From the NCBI GenBank assembly GCA_018697205.1, contig JABHTG010000057.1, forward strand, positions 124,001 to 188,000: 64,000 nucleotides of DNA. Reading direction: 5' to 3'. Origin of the DNA: Nitrospina sp. GTDB lineage: Bacteria; Nitrospinota; Nitrospinia; Nitrospinales; VA-1. Position numbers and translations under genes: made by a program. Below, in pieces: positions 2,960-49,060 of this stretch; within the stretch, counting starts at the first letter, position 1, and each line of letters begins with the position of its first letter. The notes under the pieces were generated by a model, which was not told the DNA's origin, ran no database searches, and saw only the letters and a program-made list of their open reading frames with translations.

Positions 2960-4510
2960 ATGGTTAAAGTTAACTCTAAAATTCAAAAAAATAATAAAAC
3001 AGTAGTGTTGGTTTCTCCTCCATCACGAATGATGAATCATTATCGTCCTCCACTAGCGTTAATGTATATTTCAGGATATTTGAAGCAACAAGGAATACAA
3101 ACTCAAATCGTTGACTCAATAATGGAGAGTCAAACAGTCCGAGGAGAATCATTCTTTTCAAATAAAAAAGGTTTTTTTAAAATTATCGAAGATCAAACTA
3201 TTCAACAAATATCAAAAATAGATACAGATATCATTGGTATAACTTGCTACACCCCAGAAGTAGACGAAGTTGAGCAACTTGCCCACAGAATCAAATCAAT
3301 CAAACCGAATGCCAAAATTGTAGCCGGGGGCATCCATCCGACATTATACCCAGATGATTTATTGGGCCCAAATTCTGACATTGACTTTGTAATATTTGGA
3401 GAAGGCGAAATTTCATTACACGAATTAGTAGTCGCAATTCGTTTAGGAAAAGACATACATAAGCTTAAAGGTGTCGGGTTCTATGATCGTTCTACTAGCA
3501 AAAAAGTAATCACTGAAAGGCAACTACTTGATTATGAGTTAGATTCTATTTCTTGCCCAGATTATGAAGGCATTGATATGAGCTACTACACTAATGCCTC
3601 CCCCTACGCTATTCGAGGGGTCTTCACGCGAAGTATGTACCTATCAGCCTCTCGTGGATGTCCTTCATCTTGTACTTTCTGTGTAGCCCCTGAACTCAGG
3701 GACTTTAATTTTGCCAGTGGAATTAAAAAGAATGCTGGGGTTCGCTTAAGAACACCCAAACACCTATTTGAGGAAGTCGCATTTTTAAAAGAAAAATATA
3801 AAATCGACTCGTTTTATTTTATTGATGATCTATTCACCTTGGATGAAGAGATGGTATCTGGCTTTTGTGAACTAATGATTAAAAATAAAATGAACTTAGT
3901 TTGGGGTTGCTCTTCAAAGGTCAATACGGTTGACTATAATTCTCTTAAACACATGAAGGCTGCTGGCTGCATCCAACTTGATTTTGGAGTCGAAAAAGCA
4001 TCGGACGAACAAATGCATCTTTTAAAAAAAGGTACAAAAGTCCGTGAAGTAAAGGAAACTTTTAAAAACTGTCATGAATTGGGTATTCGTGCCTTTGCTA
4101 ATATGTTAATCAATACGCCTGGTGAAACGGAGCAAGATCTTAAAGATGCTGTAGGTTTGCTCGAAGAAATCAAACCTAATATTGTATCAATTAATATTTT
4201 TACTCCATACCCTGGGACAGAGATTTTTTCTGATACTCAGGGACTCACTCGAGAAGAATATCCCTTGTTGATGGAAAACCCAGCAAAGTTAGCTGCAGAG
4301 CGACCTGACAAGTTTCGCTTCGCCAAACATAATATAGATTTAGGAGCTTTTGCTTCACAAGAAATGAAAAGGCACAATAAAGTCTATCCAAATATATCTA
4401 TATTTTTTAATCCAAAATATATACGTAGCCTTTGGCATTCACAAAGAAAACTAAATTACACCAAACAAACAAATATTTTAGTACAAGAGTTTATAAATCA
4501 AAAATTCTAA
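2960..4510 (+). CDS. B12-binding domain radical SAM protein
   Basis: 516 residues. Residues about 10-165 form a cobalamin-binding Rossmann domain, with the family pattern GGIHPTLYPDDLL followed by DFVIFGEGE. The radical SAM domain follows, with the [4Fe-4S] cluster motif C234-x3-C238-x2-C241 in SRGCPSSCTFC, then FYFIDDLFTLD and the DFGVEKASDEQM strand of the partial TIM barrel. Related class B radical SAM enzymes methylate unactivated carbon or phosphorus, or rearrange carbon skeletons, using methylcobalamin and SAM. No canonical DxHxxG cobalamin-ligand motif is visible, as is common in this class. It starts a run with a methyltransferase (19-base gap) and two more B12-radical SAM genes, suggesting stepwise modification of one glycan or lipid. 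Substrate unknown. Confidence 0.9.
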   Translation: MVKVNSKIQKNNKTVVLVSPPSRMMNHYRPPLALMYISGYLKQQGIQTQIVDSIMESQTVRGESFFSNKKGFFKIIEDQTIQQISKIDTDIIGITCYTPEVDEVEQLAHRIKSIKPNAKIVAGGIHPTLYPDDLLGPNSDIDFVIFGEGEISLHELVVAIRLGKDIHKLKGVGFYDRSTSKKVITERQLLDYELDSISCPDYEGIDMSYYTNASPYAIRGVFTRSMYLSASRGCPSSCTFCVAPELRDFNFASGIKKNAGVRLRTPKHLFEEVAFLKEKYKIDSFYFIDDLFTLDEEMVSGFCELMIKNKMNLVWGCSSKVNTVDYNSLKHMKAAGCIQLDFGVEKASDEQMHLLKKGTKVREVKETFKNCHELGIRAFANMLINTPGETEQDLKDAVGLLEEIKPNIVSINIFTPYPGTEIFSDTQGLTREEYPLLMENPAKLAAERPDKFRFAKHNIDLGAFASQEMKRHNKVYPNISIFFNPKYIRSLWHSQRKLNYTKQTNILVQEFINQKF

Positions 4511-40662: not shown

Positions 40663-41748
40663 ATGACAGAGCCTGAAAGTTTTTACAAAAATATTTTTGC
40701 CTCTCTTGCGGATGGTATTCTTATTTTTTCATCCGATCTTAAGGTAACCAAAGTTAACCAATCTGCGGAAGAAATTTTTCAGCGCTCAAAAAATTCCTTT
40801 GAAGGAGAGCACCTTTCCAAACTATTCCCCAACCAACCAAATATAATTGAAAAAGCAAACTATTCTATTGTTTCTCAAATCTCATACCATCATGTCGAAG
40901 GTATTGGGTATCGAAAATCTATTAAAAAATCCTTCCCAGTCAATCTTACCTTTTCACCATTGGTAAAAAATAGCCCCAACATCACAGCGGGAATCATCCT
41001 AATACAGGACACAAGCCTACACCAAGAGCTTCAAGAAAATTCTCAGCAAACAGATCATTTATCCGCTCTAAGTTCCCTTACCTCTGGCATGGCGCATGAA
41101 ATTAGAAATCCTCTCAGTGGCATCAGAGGTTCAGCACAGCTACTTTTAAAAGATTTGAAAAATTCCGACCAACGTGAGTATATGGAAATCGTAATCGAAG
41201 AAGTAGATCGAATAGCTCGTCTAGTAAAAAAAATGATGGATCTAACCCGCCCAACTCTCCAAGATTTTAAACAGACTAATATCCATCAGGTACTGAAGGA
41301 AATTCTTATTCTTGAACAGGAAACTCTTGAAAGAAAAGAGGGTGTATTCATTCAAAGCTATGACCCTAGCCTCCCAACTATCAAAGCAAATAAAGATGAA
41401 CTAAAACAGGTATTTTTAAATTTAATTAAAAATGCTGTAGAAGCCTCACCCAAAGGGGGGCAAGTTCATATTTCCACTCTATATAATACTGACTACTCCT
41501 TTCGGAAAAAACAGGACTCCTTATCTCCACATAGCATAATTGTAAAGATTGTTGATTCTGGTCCAGGAATGACCGATGCTACCATGAAAAAAATATTCAC
41601 ACCTTTTTTTACAACAAAAAAAAGAGGCACTGGCTTGGGGATGGCAATCTCACTTAAGATTATAGAAAATCATAAAGGAAAAATAAAAATCACTTCAAAT
41701 GAAAGTATTGGAACAATAATCCAGGTATTTTTCCCAGTAAATAAATAA
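40663..41748 (+). CDS. NtrB-like PAS-domain sensor histidine kinase
   Basis: 361 residues, GGAGG five bases before the ATG. A PAS domain (residues about 8-125: ADGILIFSSDLKVTKVNQSAEEIF) precedes the HisKA domain with H145 in SGMAHEIRNPLSGIRG, the phospho-accepting His. The ATPase domain has QVFLNLIKNAVEAS (N box), VDSGPGMTDATMKKIFTPFFTTK (G1/F box) and GTGLGMAIS (G2). There are no membrane helices, so it senses a cytoplasmic signal, like NtrB. The response regulator gene follows after 16 bases, so the pair should work together. The signal cannot be read from the sequence; NtrB itself uses PII, but the similarity is only domain-level. Confidence 0.9.
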   Translation: MTEPESFYKNIFASLADGILIFSSDLKVTKVNQSAEEIFQRSKNSFEGEHLSKLFPNQPNIIEKANYSIVSQISYHHVEGIGYRKSIKKSFPVNLTFSPLVKNSPNITAGIILIQDTSLHQELQENSQQTDHLSALSSLTSGMAHEIRNPLSGIRGSAQLLLKDLKNSDQREYMEIVIEEVDRIARLVKKMMDLTRPTLQDFKQTNIHQVLKEILILEQETLERKEGVFIQSYDPSLPTIKANKDELKQVFLNLIKNAVEASPKGGQVHISTLYNTDYSFRKKQDSLSPHSIIVKIVDSGPGMTDATMKKIFTPFFTTKKRGTGLGMAISLKIIENHKGKIKITSNESIGTIIQVFFPVNK

Positions 41749-41764: not shown

Positions 41765-43222
41765 ATGAATAATACGAAAAAAATCCTTATTGTCGATGAT
41801 GAAGAAAATATTCGTCGGATATTTAAAAAAGCGCTTGAAAAAAGAAATTATATTGCCCATACCGCCCCAAATGCCGAAGACGCTATTCAAAAAATAAAAA
41901 GTCATGAATATCTTCTCATTTTTTCAGATATATTCATGGATGAGATGAGTGGACTTACCCTGATTAAAGAAGTTAAAAAAATTAACCCACAAATTGAAGT
42001 CGTTATTATGACTGCTCAAGATACTATGAATAACACTATCGAAGCCATGCGAATAGGTGCTTACGACTATATAAGCAAACCATTTGACTTTGAAGTTGTC
42101 TACTCGTTAATTACGAGAATTGAGTCAAATAGAGAAAACCAAGCTCCATCAAAACCAGAAATAATCGAAAAATTAGATGGCGGTCCTGTTGAATCAATTG
42201 TAGGCAAAAGTAAGGTAATGCACGATATTTTCAAAACTATCGGTAAGTCCGCCACATCTGACCTTTCGGTTCTAATTACAGGAGAAAGCGGCACTGGAAA
42301 AGAAATGATAGCTGAGGCAATGCATTATTACTCCAAGCGCAAAGAGTTGCCATTTGTTTGCATTAACTGTGCCGCTATCTCAAAGGAACTTCTTGAATCA
42401 GAGCTATTTGGGCATGAAAAGGGGTCTTTCACCGGAGCAATAGATCTCAAAAAAGGGAAATTCGAAATAGCTAAAGGAGGTACCCTTTTTTTAGATGAAA
42501 TTGGTGATATGGAACTCGCTCTTCAAGCAAAAATACTGCGCGTCCTTCAAAATAAAGATTTTTACCGTATTGGAGGAAAAGAAGTTCTTGAAGCAGATGT
42601 AAGAATCATTGCTGCTACCAATCAAAACCTAGAAGAACAGATGAAACAAAAACAATTCCGCGAGGACTTATTCCACAGGCTCAACGTTATTAATATTTCG
42701 ATACCACCACTTCGTGACCGAATGGAGGATGTGACACTTTTAGCAAACCATTTTTTAGATAAACACGCAACTGACTTATCGCAAGGAGAGATATACCTGG
42801 CTTTAGAAACTATAAAAATTCTTAATGATTATTCTTGGAGGGGAAATATTCGTGAGCTTGAAAACGTCATTAAGCGCGCTGTTGTTTTAGCTAGAACGGG
42901 ACCTATTCTTTCTGAACATCTTCCAGAGCATATAATATCAGAAAGTCTTAAAAGTACAGAAACAGATGGGATCATGGAAAATCACTTTAAACAATTAATT
43001 CATAAATATCTCCTAAAAAATCAAGATGCTCAGGATGGACATATATACGAGAGTATTATTCAACTGGTTGAAAGACAACTCATTGAAATCACTCTCGAAA
43101 AATACTCTGGGAAACAAGTCTCTGTAGCACAAGCACTTGGAATTAATCGTAACACTCTGAAACGAAAAATAGACGCGATGAAAATTGAGATAAAAAAAAT
43201 CAACCCAAATAACCTCGTATAA
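41765..43222 (+). CDS. NtrC-family sigma-54-dependent response regulator
   Basis: 485 residues. Receiver domain with ILIVDDEENIRRIF and phospho-acceptor D55 (FSDIFMDEMSG). The AAA+ domain has Walker A GESGTGKE, the sigma-54 contact loop as GSFTGA (Ala replaced by Ser, a known variant), Walker B GGTLFLDEIGDM, and the arginine-finger region FREDLFHRLNVI. A Fis-type helix-turn-helix ends the protein (YSGKQVSVAQALGINRNTLKRKI). It activates promoters that need sigma-54 once phosphorylated by the kinase encoded next to it. I looked for TGGCAC-N5-TTGC promoters in the larger gaps of this window and found no convincing one, so its targets are probably elsewhere. Confidence 0.93.
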   Translation: MNNTKKILIVDDEENIRRIFKKALEKRNYIAHTAPNAEDAIQKIKSHEYLLIFSDIFMDEMSGLTLIKEVKKINPQIEVVIMTAQDTMNNTIEAMRIGAYDYISKPFDFEVVYSLITRIESNRENQAPSKPEIIEKLDGGPVESIVGKSKVMHDIFKTIGKSATSDLSVLITGESGTGKEMIAEAMHYYSKRKELPFVCINCAAISKELLESELFGHEKGSFTGAIDLKKGKFEIAKGGTLFLDEIGDMELALQAKILRVLQNKDFYRIGGKEVLEADVRIIAATNQNLEEQMKQKQFREDLFHRLNVINISIPPLRDRMEDVTLLANHFLDKHATDLSQGEIYLALETIKILNDYSWRGNIRELENVIKRAVVLARTGPILSEHLPEHIISESLKSTETDGIMENHFKQLIHKYLLKNQDAQDGHIYESIIQLVERQLIEITLEKYSGKQVSVAQALGINRNTLKRKIDAMKIEIKKINPNNLV

Positions 43223-43232
43223 GGAAAATCTT

Positions 43233-44192
43233 TTGCACGACCAAACAATCTTTTCTTACCAAACACCATCAGGACAAAGAGTAGAAATTCTCAAACAATC
43301 ATTTCCGTCATCTCGAAAACGACCGGTCAAAAAAATTGCTTTTGTTTCAGGAATTCATGGAAATGAATTAGAAGGTATTTACATTTGTCACCTTATCAAC
43401 AAATTCTTAAAAGAATTAAAGAAAGGTAACCCTGAAGCTTTTCTTGGCGAAGTTCATATTTATCCAACAGTTAATCCACAAGCAACTGCTAGCGGAACTC
43501 GCTTGTGGCCCTTTCTTTCAATTGACTTCAATCGCCAGTTTGGAAATTCGACGGGAGATTCCCCAGCAGCTAAATGCGCTGAAGCATTAATAAAAGACCT
43601 AAAGCTCTCTGCTGATATTGTGGTTGATTTTCATGCTAGTAATCTACACCTCAAAGAAACGCCTCAAATTAGAATCACTGAAGGTTTTCATAAAAAACTT
43701 ATTCCTCTTAGTGTTCATTGCAATGTTGATCTTGTATGGGTTCATCCTCTATCCCCTATGTTTAAATCCACATTAGGTTACAACATGAATCAATGCAAAG
43801 TTCCCACGTTGGTCATTGAAACTGGGATCGCCTTACGTATAAATCAAAAATTTGCAAATCGTATTTTTTTAGGCATGGTAAACCTTCTTCATCACTTAGG
43901 AGTCATTGCGACTAACGACCCTCCACCACAAGTTAATCATCCAATAATTGCTCACCCTTCTCAAGTTGTTTCAATTCATTCTGAACATGCAGGGCTATTT
44001 ATTGGACATACTGATATAAAAAAAAATACTACTAAGGGAGAAACACTTGGGGAGATAGTGGACGCAAAAAATGGAAAAACTTTACAGGAAGTAACAGCAA
44101 CTGAAAATGGATTTCTTTTCACTATAAGAGAGCATCCCTTAGTTTACCCAAACTCACTTCTATACAGAATTGCTAAAGATATATTGACATGA
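43233..44192 (+). CDS. Succinylglutamate desuccinylase/aspartoacylase family protein
   Basis: 319 residues from a TTG start with AAGGA about eight bases upstream. Zinc-peptidase fold of family M14: FVSGIHGNELEGIY has the metal ligands H42 and E45; SIDFNRQFG holds the substrate-binding Asn-Arg; VVDFHASNLHL supplies the third ligand, His. Residues 225-319 form a beta-rich barrel tail (SEHAGLFIGHTDIKKNTTKGETLGEIVD) like that of AstE/AspA deacylases. It should cleave an N-acyl or amide bond of a small metabolite in the cytoplasm. It overlaps a degenerate paralogue by 4 bases (ATGA) and follows the NtrB/NtrC pair after 10 bases, so it may be a partner or target of that system. Confidence 0.85.
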   Translation: MHDQTIFSYQTPSGQRVEILKQSFPSSRKRPVKKIAFVSGIHGNELEGIYICHLINKFLKELKKGNPEAFLGEVHIYPTVNPQATASGTRLWPFLSIDFNRQFGNSTGDSPAAKCAEALIKDLKLSADIVVDFHASNLHLKETPQIRITEGFHKKLIPLSVHCNVDLVWVHPLSPMFKSTLGYNMNQCKVPTLVIETGIALRINQKFANRIFLGMVNLLHHLGVIATNDPPPQVNHPIIAHPSQVVSIHSEHAGLFIGHTDIKKNTTKGETLGEIVDAKNGKTLQEVTATENGFLFTIREHPLVYPNSLLYRIAKDILT

Positions 44193-45157
44193 AAAAAAAT
44201 ATTCTTTCAATTCGCTCGCCCTTTGGACCTCCTATCGAATTATCACAATTCACTTGGGAAGGAACTGGAATTAAAAATAATATTTCTATTGTTTCTGGAA
44301 TTCAAGGCCATCATATCAACGGAATTTACATTTGCTCACGGCTCATTCGTTTTCTCAACTTAGTAGAGTCTAGAAAAGAATTAGGTTATTATTTAAAAGG
44401 TATAGTAAAAATCATACCTACCGTTAATATTCCCGCTATTGAAGAAGATAAGAGTCTGTGGTCACTCCACGATATGGATATGAATCTTGCTTTCCCGGGA
44501 AATAACCAAGGTGAAGTCATTGAACAAATTGCCGCCTTTGCTTATCAGCATACAAAAAATTCTAAATTTGGACTCATTCTTCAAAGTGCCAATATTCATT
44601 ATGATGATGCACCACAAATTTTTTGCTTAAAACCGGATGGGATTACTAAAGATTTTGCAAGAAGCTTAGGGCCTAAAAATGCACGTGAACCCACTGTTTT
44701 ATCTACCTTTGGACTTTCCCTTTATAGTCAGTGGATAGATCAAATGATGACTTCTGCTATTTTATCTGCAGGAAAACCAAATCACCTAGACATAGCACTT
44801 TGCGAAACTCTACTTAATGGAATAATCAACTGCCTTTTATGGACAGACGTGCTAGGCAATGACTACAAAAAGCCAATAAAATATCACTTAAAGTTCAACA
44901 AACCTAATAAAGAGCAGTTTATAACATCTCATGCAGGTGGTTTTTTTTTACCCACAGTAAAGCTAGGTACAGAAATTAAAAAAGGGGAAAAGATAGGAGC
45001 TATTGTTGACATACACTCGAACAGTACACTCGAAACAGTTTTAGCTGATTCGGATGGGTATTTAGCCACCTTACGCAATCACCCTATAGTTTATCAAAAA
45101 GAAATATTAGCTATTTTGTTAAGGAAATCAGGACTTTCTTTTTGGCCCACGAAGTAA
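44189..45157 (+). CDS. Catalytically degenerate aspartoacylase-family paralogue
   Basis: 322 residues, similar along its whole length to the preceding protein: SIVSGIQGHHINGIYIC, KIIPTVNIPAI, and a C-terminal HAGGFFLPTVKLGTEIKKGEKIGAIVD barrel tail. Each catalytic motif is changed, however. The HGNE metal site reads QGHH, the DFNRQFG substrate motif reads DMNLAFP, and the DFHAS zinc ligand reads LQSAN. The frame is intact and coding quality looks normal, so it is not an obvious pseudogene. It overlaps the active copy by 4 bases (ATGA). It may be a regulatory or structural partner in a heteromeric complex; that is inference. Confidence 0.85.
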   Translation: MKKNILSIRSPFGPPIELSQFTWEGTGIKNNISIVSGIQGHHINGIYICSRLIRFLNLVESRKELGYYLKGIVKIIPTVNIPAIEEDKSLWSLHDMDMNLAFPGNNQGEVIEQIAAFAYQHTKNSKFGLILQSANIHYDDAPQIFCLKPDGITKDFARSLGPKNAREPTVLSTFGLSLYSQWIDQMMTSAILSAGKPNHLDIALCETLLNGIINCLLWTDVLGNDYKKPIKYHLKFNKPNKEQFITSHAGGFFLPTVKLGTEIKKGEKIGAIVDIHSNSTLETVLADSDGYLATLRNHPIVYQKEILAILLRKSGLSFWPTK

Positions 45158-45255: not shown

Positions 45256-46005
45256 ATGCACACATTTAACTTATCAAGTCAGCTCATGATAGAACAATCA
45301 ACTGATGGCTACCGTTACTCTATTGAACCGTTTTTATTAGTTCACTTTTCAAAATTATTAACCGGCACCCGCCTTTTAGATGTTGGGGCGGGATGCGGTA
45401 TTATCCCTCTTCTCGTAGCAATGCAAACAAGTATAAAAGAAATCGTAGGAATAGAAATTCAAAAAAGTCTTTATGACATCGCCGTTAACAATATATCAAG
45501 AAACGATTCCTCTGATAGAATAAGACTAATTCATGGTAACTTTATCAATGCAGGCTTAATTTCTACGCTTAACTTATTTGATACAATAATTTCAAATCCA
45601 CCATACCGAAAATTGAATACAGGGCGTATTAACCCTAATCATGAAAAAGCGATAGCGAGGCACGAGATATCCATAGACTTAAATTCACTTCTTTCCAAAA
45701 CAAGCAGTTTGTTAAAATACAAGGGGAAATTTATTATGGCTTATCCACCATTAAGGCTTAGAGAAGTGCAGGAAAGACTCTATTTTTACAAATTATTTCC
45801 CTCAAGACTTCGTTTTATACATAGTTCAAGTGAGGCTGATTCTCGGATATTTCTAATTGAAGCAGTAAAAAACCAGCAAGTAGAATGTATAATCGAACCT
45901 CCTCTATTTGTTTATAATAAAGATGGCTCTTTTACAAAAGAAATGGAAAAAATTTATGCTTCCTTTAATTATTTTAGCCGGTCCCACCACATCAAAGAAA
46001 AGTGA
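45256..46005 (+). CDS. TrmN6-like SAM-dependent N6-adenine methyltransferase
   Basis: 249 residues. Motif I is LLDVGAGCGIIPLLVA, and IISNPPYRKLNTGR holds the NPPY motif that flips and methylates exocyclic amines. The N-terminal LMIEQSTDGYRYSIEPFLL is the characteristic start of the YfiC/TrmN6 group, which makes m6A37 in tRNA1-Val. Its 3' end overlaps the next gene's start by about 50 bases. That gene encodes MiaA, which modifies the same position class (A37) in other tRNAs, a sensible pairing. An alternative is a HemK/RsmC-like methyltransferase, but the N-terminal motif favours TrmN6. Confidence 0.82.
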   Translation: MHTFNLSSQLMIEQSTDGYRYSIEPFLLVHFSKLLTGTRLLDVGAGCGIIPLLVAMQTSIKEIVGIEIQKSLYDIAVNNISRNDSSDRIRLIHGNFINAGLISTLNLFDTIISNPPYRKLNTGRINPNHEKAIARHEISIDLNSLLSKTSSLLKYKGKFIMAYPPLRLREVQERLYFYKLFPSRLRFIHSSSEADSRIFLIEAVKNQQVECIIEPPLFVYNKDGSFTKEMEKIYASFNYFSRSHHIKEK

Positions 46006-49000
46006 TACGGCAATCGAGTTAGCCGAAAAAATTAATTCAGAAATTATTAGTGCTGACTCTATGCAAGTTTATAAATATTTTAATATAGGAACAGCAAAAG
46101 TAACACCTGCGGATAGAGCTAGAGTCCCTCACCACCTAATTGACATTCTAGAACCTGACCAAAGTTTTTCTGCCTTTGACTTTAAATCTAAGGCTTTAAG
46201 GCAAATAAGAAAAATACATAAACAAGGTAAAGTCCCGATAATAACTGGAGGCACTGGACTCTACATTAAAGTCTTATGCGAAAACTATGATTGCGCAGTC
46301 CAAATAAATCCAGAAATAAAAAAACAAGTCAAAGCTGATATCCAATCAAAAGGACTTCCCGAAGTACACAAGGAACTCCAACAAATTGATCCCAATTCTG
46401 CAAAGCGGATTTCCTCTTTAGACACACAACGTATTGAACGTGCCATCTCTGTGTACCGCCAAACAGGTATACCTTTTTCAGATTTCAGCAAAACGCAACC
46501 AAATCCAAATTATGAATTCCCCATTTATACTTTTCTCATAGAACGAGACCGAGAAGAACTTTATACAAGCATCAACCAGCGAGTCGAGAAAATGATAAAT
46601 ATAGGATGGATTGAAGAAGTAAAAGCTATTTTAGCCCAGGGTTTCTCTGAAAAGCTAAAACCTTTTCAAAGTATTGGATACGCACAAATCATAAGGTTTC
46701 TACATGAGAAACAGTCCCTAGAGAAAACCACTGACTTAATCAAGCAAGACACTCGGAATTATGCGAAACGACAGATTACCTGGTTTAAAAAACTTTGCAA
46801 TACCAAAATAATTAAAGCAACTATATCCGATAACCCAGCTTCCATCAGAGACCGATTACTACCTCTGCTTCCAAAGTCATTAATCATAATTGCCTTTTTT
46901 CTTATACTCTCTCTTATTAATCCAGGGAAAACAATTGGAAGTGAGAATAAGGGATATTCTTTTGCTTTGTTACAGTTTCAAAATAAAAATTTTCACCAGG
47001 CCGCCCTTTTATTTCGTTCTATTTATTCTTCAACCCCCAATTCCATAGAGAAAAAAAGAGCCTATTACCTTCTCGCTCATAGTTTAGTTCATACAGGTAA
47101 GTTAAATGAACCAATTGAAATCTTCTTAGCCTCTATCAAAAATTATCCAGAAATAGAAGACTACATTCGATTTCACTTATCAGAGGTATTTTTTCGTTCT
47201 GGGAAAACTAAAGAAGCCTTGGAACAAGTTCACATAATACAACAAAAATTTCCAAAAACTCTATTACTAACTAAAACTAACATTCTATTAGCAAAAATTT
47301 TAGAAAGAAAAAACGAAATCAAAACTGCTCTTAAATTACTTGCCAAAACAGAAAAAAAAATATCAAAGCTTTCCAAATCCTCTGAAGAAAGATTACACCT
47401 GCCGCAAATTATATATCACCAAGGAATTCTAAACAAAAAATCTGGAGAATTTACTAAATCTTATAACCGCTATCGATTTCTCCATATTGCCTTCCCAACA
47501 AACCGATTAACAAAACTTGCAAAAAAAGAAATGAAAAAACTCGCTAACGAATTTTCATTTAATATAGAACCTTTAACACTCGATGAATATGAACAACGAA
47601 TTAAAGCACTCCTCCAAGATGTGCAATACCAACAAGTAGTTAATGAAGTTTCTGAGTTGCTTAAAGAAAAAATTTCGCTTCCAGCTAATTTCTATTTCTA
47701 TTTAGCTAAAGCACAAAAAGGCCTTCGCAATAGAGATCTCTCTATTTTTTCGCTTAGAAAATTTCTACAGCACTATCCAAACCATAAACGAACTCAAGAG
47801 GCTTTATTCAATATTGGGCGAAATCTTTGGAACACTGGATATTATAGTGACGGACTAAAAAACTTTAAAGACTCAATCAATATAAATACTAACCCTGGTC
47901 TAACTAACCAAGCGATTTTTTTTGTTGGGAAAATGCATGAAGAGAAAAAACGCTATACCCAAGCAACTAAATATTACTCAATTTTATCTGATAAATTTAA
48001 TGGAGAATATGCCGAACGTGCTATATGGCAGCTTGGATGGATGAACTATACAACAGGAAATTTCCAAAAATCTTTTGACTACTTTGGTGACAGTATCAAA
48101 AAATATCCAACTGGCCTTTTTGCCGAAAGCAGCATGTTCTGGAGCGCAAAATCAGCTGAAAAATTAAAACACAAGGATCTTTCCCAAAAAATTTTCACAG
48201 ACGTTAATATATTATTTCCTTACACCTACTATGGAATTAGGGCGGAAAACATCATAGCCGACAAGAAGATTTTTCCAACTGCAATCAAAAGTCAAGCGTC
48301 GCCTGATATGACACATAATCTATCAAGTGCTGTGCGCTTTCACTATTATCGAGGAGTTGAGTTATCAGCAACTGGTTTTTTTGAAGAAGCAAGACTTGAA
48401 ATCAAAAAGGTAGAAATTGCCACACGAAAAAACCTGTCCGGAGTAATTTGGCTAACCAAACTTTATAATGATGCTAACGCTTATTCTGACACTCAAAGGA
48501 TTATGCAACTATATAAAAACTATAAAACCAAAATCAGAGAAAAAGAACTTTCTGATAATTTTTGGAAAAACTTTTATCCACTAGCCTATGCAAAAGCTAT
48601 TCACGACAGTTCAAAATTTTTTAATGTGGATCCATACTTCGTGAAAGGGCTTATTCGACAAGAAAGTTTATTTAATGCACAAGTCCAATCTCGTGCTGGA
48701 GCGATTGGATTAATGCAAATTATGCCAGCAACTGGGCGGAACCTATACGCTAATTCAAAAAACAAAGAACCATTCACTACCGAAATATTATTTAACCCTG
48801 AAAAAAATATTCAATTGGGGGTCCAATACATTCACCAACTAAATAAACGTTTTAATAAAAATAAAGCACATATTTTAATTTCATATAACGCCGGCCCTCA
48901 TAATTTAAAAAAATGGTTAAAAAGGTTTAAACATATTAATGACCCTGACGTGTTTATAGAATCTATTCCATATCCCGAAACCAGAAAATACGTTAAAAAA

Positions 49001-49060
49001 GTGCTCAGAAACTACGGGATTTACCAATCTTTATATCCAAAAAATTCTTTAGCTAATTAA
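45956..49060 (+). CDS. miaA: Fusion: MiaA tRNA dimethylallyltransferase - membrane helix - TPR lytic transglycosylase
   Basis: 1034 residues from the ATG at 45956, which starts MLPLIILAGP at the MiaA P-loop; the track's ATG 16 codons earlier gives an atypical N-terminus. Residues 1-305 are MiaA: ISADSMQVYKYFNIGTAK, PHHLIDILEPDQSFSAF, IITGGTGLYIK, YAKRQITWFKKL. The Walker A reads GPTTSKKS, with Lys where the family has Gly. In the same frame a hydrophobic helix follows (LIIIAFFLILSLI, about 310-322), then TPR repeats and an SLT domain with RQESLFNAQVQSRAGAIGLMQIMPATG and YNAGPHNLKKW. Topology would put MiaA in the cytoplasm and the murein-cleaving domain in the periplasm. No ATG, GTG or TTG lies just ahead of the helix for a separate start; a CTG does. 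Confidence 0.85.
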   Translation: MLPLIILAGPTTSKKSDTAIELAEKINSEIISADSMQVYKYFNIGTAKVTPADRARVPHHLIDILEPDQSFSAFDFKSKALRQIRKIHKQGKVPIITGGTGLYIKVLCENYDCAVQINPEIKKQVKADIQSKGLPEVHKELQQIDPNSAKRISSLDTQRIERAISVYRQTGIPFSDFSKTQPNPNYEFPIYTFLIERDREELYTSINQRVEKMINIGWIEEVKAILAQGFSEKLKPFQSIGYAQIIRFLHEKQSLEKTTDLIKQDTRNYAKRQITWFKKLCNTKIIKATISDNPASIRDRLLPLLPKSLIIIAFFLILSLINPGKTIGSENKGYSFALLQFQNKNFHQAALLFRSIYSSTPNSIEKKRAYYLLAHSLVHTGKLNEPIEIFLASIKNYPEIEDYIRFHLSEVFFRSGKTKEALEQVHIIQQKFPKTLLLTKTNILLAKILERKNEIKTALKLLAKTEKKISKLSKSSEERLHLPQIIYHQGILNKKSGEFTKSYNRYRFLHIAFPTNRLTKLAKKEMKKLANEFSFNIEPLTLDEYEQRIKALLQDVQYQQVVNEVSELLKEKISLPANFYFYLAKAQKGLRNRDLSIFSLRKFLQHYPNHKRTQEALFNIGRNLWNTGYYSDGLKNFKDSININTNPGLTNQAIFFVGKMHEEKKRYTQATKYYSILSDKFNGEYAERAIWQLGWMNYTTGNFQKSFDYFGDSIKKYPTGLFAESSMFWSAKSAEKLKHKDLSQKIFTDVNILFPYTYYGIRAENIIADKKIFPTAIKSQASPDMTHNLSSAVRFHYYRGVELSATGFFEEARLEIKKVEIATRKNLSGVIWLTKLYNDANAYSDTQRIMQLYKNYKTKIREKELSDNFWKNFYPLAYAKAIHDSSKFFNVDPYFVKGLIRQESLFNAQVQSRAGAIGLMQIMPATGRNLYANSKNKEPFTTEILFNPEKNIQLGVQYIHQLNKRFNKNKAHILISYNAGPHNLKKWLKRFKHINDPDVFIESIPYPETRKYVKKVLRNYGIYQSLYPKNSLAN

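Follow-up and report, generated by a model that had tools for sequence, protein, structure and literature searches.

A conserved tandem of a predicted zinc hydrolase and its probable pseudoenzyme partner in the aspartoacylase/AstE family

Introduction

The aspartoacylase/AstE hydrolases, which include the Canavan-disease enzyme, and the M14 carboxypeptidases belong to a related metallopeptidase clan. Within M14, several inactive homologues are described: domain III of CPD, AEBP1, CPXM1/2 and Ecm14 have lost metal or base residues (PMC11266112). In other families, an inactive homologue is a working partner of an active enzyme. The TldD/TldE (PmbA) metalloprotease is a heterodimer of an active metallo-subunit and a homologue without metal ligands, and both are needed for activity (PMC5810440). 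Similarly, the live enzyme AdoMetDC is activated by prozyme, a dead paralogue (PMC5201418).

Here we analyze a tandem of two aspartoacylase/AstE-type genes, A and B, found in a stretch of 64,000 nucleotides (the window) from a Nitrospinaceae (Nitrospinota) MAG with an assembly of 2.48 Mb. An earlier note on this DNA had described the pair as one intact copy and one copy stripped of all catalytic motifs, and had suggested an enzyme/pseudoenzyme heterodimer next to an NtrB/NtrC pair.

Results

Gene A keeps a complete active site and gene B does not

Both reading frames lie where the earlier note placed them, and the overlap of four bases that it reported is an ATGA start/stop overlap (Table 1), raising the possibility that translation of the two genes is coupled. 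In profile searches against PF24827, A scores 74.6 bits and B scores 25.3 bits, the latter a marginal match that lies above the cut-off of 25. Because the two proteins share 27% identity across nearly their full length (E 3e-28), their homology is not a product of chance.

Table 1. Features of the A/B locus, with positions in the window
Feature	Position	Strand	Details
ntrB-like sensor kinase	40663-41748	+	profile match below NtrB equivalog
ntrC-like sigma-54 activator	41765-43222	+	ends 10 bases upstream of A; below NtrC equivalog
gene A, predicted active zinc deacylase/amidohydrolase, aspartoacylase/AstE family	43233-44192	+	319 aa; PF24827
ATGA start/stop overlap of A and B	44189-44192	+	4 bases
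gene B, probable pseudoenzyme paralogue of A	44189-45157	+	322 aa; PF24827, AlphaFold2 model, dN/dS
MiaA-SLT reading frame	45908-49060	+	1050 aa

A contains the motifs GIHGNE, DFNR and VDFHAS and the catalytic-glutamate motif VIETG, so that HGNE, DFNR and DFHAS, from which the upstream copy had been read as catalytically intact, are all present. Its catalytic set is complete: H42, E45 and H134, which we take to be the zinc ligands; R90, N100 and R101, presumably the substrate residues; and E196, presumably the catalytic base. Both its profile match and this set (HxxE, NR, H and base Glu) place A in the aspartoacylase/AstE family. The matching columns of B read GIQGHH, DMNL, LILQSAN and ILSAG, with Q39, H42, S89, N99, L100, Q132 and S193 at the catalytic positions. 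The window's B belongs to PF24827 by sequence and fold and has none of the three zinc ligands, nor the substrate arginine or the base glutamate, of an aspartoacylase/AstE enzyme. This is also a warning for annotation, as B exceeds the threshold of an enzyme family yet cannot be an ordinary enzyme of that family.

For A, activity as a zinc amidohydrolase is very likely. It scores far below the equivalog cut-offs for DoeB (45.1 versus 402.7 bits), AspA (34.7 versus 180) and AstE (18.7 versus 170). We looked for a link to cyanophycin, which a CphZ-like role would imply, and found none: cyanophycin synthetase is found in 0 of 31 genomes above the TIGR02068 cut-off.

An AlphaFold2 model of the window's B, built from 49 alignment rows, is confident (pLDDT 89.2, pTM 0.88). 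Its closest solved fold is 3CDX (TM 0.79), with DoeB (6TWM) and CphZ (8EIN/8EIP) also near it, and identity of B to the best solved structures is only about 13-20%. Profiles of both A (E 1e-19) and the B family (E 5e-16) match 3CDX. We also modeled a fused A-B chain from one locus (L006) by translating through the in-frame stop that separates A from B as if it were a residue, with a small and balanced alignment. The domains of this chain fold (pLDDT 77.6), and their relative placement is undefined (pTM 0.51), so that the model supports no interface; with so thin an alignment (11 rows, only 3 for A) it weighs neither for nor against a heterodimer.

The pair is kept or lost as a unit in Nitrospinota

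We surveyed 77 Nitrospinota genomes, 64 from the host order and 13 from outside it. Of the former, 56/64 carry the A-B tandem, compared with 0/13 of the latter. A and B are neighbors in all carriers where the contig permits, and the exact four-base overlap is found in 39 of 49 pairs. Among genomes with complete sequence, we saw none with A alone or B alone.

The pair is missing from eight genomes of the order. In two of these, the congeners G001 and G007, both genes are absent while fmdB-ntrB-ntrC, a methyltransferase gene and miaA are retained in order, with about 50 bases separating ntrC from the methyltransferase gene. Five of the other six also have no ntrC orthologue, a pattern consistent with gaps in the assemblies or with the entire locus having been lost. 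G038, where the pair is also absent, belongs to a different family and has only distant ntrC paralogues.

Loss or breakage of the second copy in close relatives had been named beforehand as the outcome that would speak against the pairing. Instead, the survey finds the B reading frame intact in nearly all carriers and B absent only jointly with A. In pairwise comparisons B has dN/dS values of 0.06-0.32, matching those of A (0.06-0.23), from which it follows that B is under purifying selection as a protein. We nevertheless asked how far the data allow B to be a duplicate in decay, retained by chance or through non-adaptive entrenchment of a paralogue complex. Two carriers have an interrupted B, namely G035, a 59%-complete MAG in which B is split over two frames, and G731; B also changes more quickly (mean column identity 53%, versus 63% for A). 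However, the low dN/dS values, the frame kept open nearly everywhere and the confident fold prediction all speak against decay, as do the residues invariant in B and its persistence in several phyla since one duplication (see below). Decay is thus largely refuted by the conservation data, and we give it very little credence.

The tandem occurs in at least three other bacterial groups

Using the A alignment as a query against one genome per species, we find A in Desulfuromonadales, Clostridium and Spirochaetes, and in every case a second copy follows it immediately. Tandem pairs are present in about 33 of the 244 genomes from the class to which the Desulfuromonadales record belongs, in 22/227 genomes of the Clostridium order and in 4/248 genomes of the spirochaete class. 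The tandems of Desulfuromonadia, Clostridia and Spirochaetes have the same A-B order as those of Nitrospinota and often the identical four-base overlap (for example, L128 and L129). Since at least four bacterial groups retain or lose the two genes jointly, B is very probably a working partner of A and not debris.

In Desulfuromonadia, A-B directly follows genes for a circularly permuted ATP-grasp protein, an Alpha-E protein and a transglutaminase in 17/17 loci (L128, L210-L218, L230-L234, L241 and L242), and three spirochaete loci have ATP-grasp and transglutaminase genes near the pair. Genes of these three types are frequent company of the proteasome-like Anbu (PMC5666114). We noticed no Anbu gene along the stretch at L128, and it is possible that A-B replaces Anbu in the Desulfuromonadia cassettes. 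A/B does not need the cassette, because the window's genus has no Alpha-E gene at all; a dependence of the pair on Alpha-E is rejected there.

Two further observations concern relatives of the pair. At one Desulfuromonadia locus (L216, genome G141), a third related copy lies near 3892 on the minus strand; it has an A-type beginning (LPVFDTDLNR) followed by B sequence, the HxxE region is gone, and it looks as if it were the product of recombination between A and B. Separately, in G042:C65, G048:C27 and other Nitrospinota, a single-copy active-type aspartoacylase relative adjoins an ATP-grasp-like gene; this relative shares a contig with Alpha-E in G042 and G022.

The NtrB/NtrC-like neighbors are a local arrangement

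The adjacency to an NtrB/NtrC pair is real, and within the host order the ntrB-ntrC genes stand beside A-B nearly universally. In 40/47 loci the start of A falls somewhere from 4 bases before the ntrC end to 52 bases past it, and the gene that follows B starts at least 94 bases downstream of it. The ntrB- and ntrC-like genes are probably co-transcribed with A and B in one operon. Neither regulator reaches its equivalog cut-off (NtrB, 176.1 versus 240 bits; NtrC, 512.5 versus 558.6 bits), so by sequence we call them NtrBC-like, and a nitrogen role is unproven. Sigma-54 sites in the window are about as frequent as chance predicts (25 found versus 23.9 expected), and scans for sigma-70 promoters and terminators were uninformative. 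The adjacency is not general, since G001 and G007 keep ntrBC alone and the pairs of other phyla have different surroundings with no ntrBC beside them. Given the scores below cut-off, the retention of ntrBC without A/B and its absence beside the pair elsewhere, we regard the ntrBC link as a local arrangement of Nitrospinota and not as a part of the system.

These data bear on a second explanation, in which B would be no structural partner but would sense or titrate a ligand, binding the substrate or product of A uncut and relaying a signal, in Nitrospinota perhaps to the PAS-containing NtrB-like kinase. Such a role would suit both the position of ntrB-ntrC in Nitrospinota and a mirror-tree analysis in which the partial correlation is higher for B-NtrB (0.58) than for A-B (0.47). 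The same analysis is not specific as evidence for an A-B interaction, and we rejected it for that use. The survival of ntrBC in genomes without A/B, and the pairs elsewhere that have no such neighbors, argue against a sensor, which we consider unlikely.

Downstream of the pair, the window holds a single reading frame (Table 1) that encodes MiaA (tRNA dimethylallyltransferase; PF01715, residues 53-295), a hydrophobic stretch, TPRs and, at residues 901-1009, a lytic transglycosylase domain of the SLT type (PF01464). One reading frame covers both halves in every Nitrospinota locus of sufficient length. This joining of a cytoplasmic tRNA-modifying enzyme to a cell-wall hydrolase is an unusual fusion.

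A probable single duplication and a graded loss of the active site

In a maximum likelihood tree, a single clade (SH-aLRT 100) holds the As of every lineage, and B was therefore not made anew by each lineage. A separate origin of B per lineage is rejected, as the As group with one another and not with the B of their own lineage. Constraining all Bs to one clade improves the likelihood by 7 log-units over the free search, and this tree is not rejected (p-AU 0.675). We favor a single B clade, in which one ancient duplication would have given rise to A and B; because the B branches are long, the tree is support for this history and not proof.

We compared catalytic residues across 110 As and 111 Bs from the four lineages. 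The H/E/N/R/H residues are present in 110/110 As, and the base glutamate in 106. The four with aspartate at this column come from rumen spirochaete loci (L135-L138), where A itself may thus be altered. The base glutamate is found in 0/111 Bs, and the remaining losses differ by lineage. Bs from Desulfuromonadia keep the zinc ligands and the N100, R101 and R90 positions and carry Arg, Gln or Thr in place of the base; Bs from Clostridia and Spirochaetes have lost both zinc histidines; and Bs from Nitrospinota have lost nearly all active-site residues, the exceptions being the zinc glutamate in one, the arginine in one and a histidine at the third ligand column in three, with the complete set in none. 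The description of the second copy as stripped of all catalytic motifs is therefore exact for the window's B, but across the B family the loss is graded and the Desulfuromonadia zinc site survives.

A B that retains its ligands and substrate residues and has exchanged only the base, as in Desulfuromonadia, could bind a ligand as the sensor explanation requires; the solved structure of a base-glutamate mutant (E251A) of CphZ, a relative, holds a bound ligand (8EIP). In Nitrospinota, however, the pocket residues that such a sensor would use are largely gone.

B also has residues of its own. W182 is present in 109/111 Bs, where A has Leu or Met, and W91 in 105/111, at a column that is mixed in A, though Nitrospinota As mostly have Trp too. 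The near-invariance of these two residues makes B a definable family with its own signature. It could also point to a different, relocated chemistry in the same pathway as A, and since the metal site of the Desulfuromonadia Bs looks intact, B may indeed do other chemistry there. Against such an enzyme in general, the conserved B-specific set is mostly Gly, Pro, Trp and Leu and contains no new candidate metal-ligand or acid/base cluster common to all lineages. We consider relocated chemistry improbable.

Discussion

Co-occurrence, adjacency and selection on an inactive partner mark A and B as an obligate pair. We propose, with reasonable though not high confidence, that they form one functional unit derived from a single ancient tandem duplication, in which A is the catalytic and B the non-catalytic subunit, most likely of an A:B heteromer. 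In this proposal an aspartoacylase/AstE-type zinc amidohydrolase would have been duplicated once in tandem. The substrate of A would be small, an N-acylated amino acid or dipeptide-like molecule from which A takes off an acyl or aminoacyl group. B would have lost the catalytic glutamate first and would now shape or gate the active site of A, or bind a ligand to control A. The physical complex, the order of the losses, the direction of regulation and the substrate are what we infer. Thus, of the enzyme/pseudoenzyme heterodimer suggested at the outset, the pairing stands, as B is conserved, selected and absent only with A, whereas the heterodimer stays inferential given the pTM of the fused chain.

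A broader and more tentative reading is that A/B represents a cross-phylum family of two-subunit hydrolases, in which one duplication gave a dead subunit now seen at stages of decay, with the metal site kept in Desulfuromonadia, both zinc histidines lost in Clostridia and Spirochaetes, and almost everything lost in Nitrospinota. In some lineages the pair would work with an ATP-grasp/Alpha-E/transglutaminase peptide system, replacing Anbu. Pseudoenzymes at several stages of site loss beside an unchanged active twin make the needs of a dead subunit directly testable.

We found no description of an enzyme-pseudoenzyme pair in the aspartoacylase/AstE family in the open-access literature that we searched or among solved structures. 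The solved PF24827 relatives 3CDX, DoeB and CphZ (a cyanophycin dipeptide hydrolase) have the fold common to A and B, and A has all of the catalytic residues; unlike A/B, none of the three has an obligate inactive paralogue that we could find on record. The inactive M14 homologues differ from B in being eukaryotic, in belonging to a separate subfamily and in having no two-gene operon with an active twin. The Amidoligase/Anbu-type cassette resembles the Desulfuromonadia loci in the three genes that A-B follows. AdoMetDC/prozyme is also a live enzyme with a dead paralogue; the enzyme and the organism differ, and B is only a putative activator. By analogy, A:B is probably a heteromer like TldD/TldE, with which it shares a live and an inactive homologue, though the fold is unrelated and the A:B complex is putative. 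Inactive-paralogue partners are therefore already known in other families, and the aspartoacylase/AstE pair, as read from its sequences, would be a new instance.
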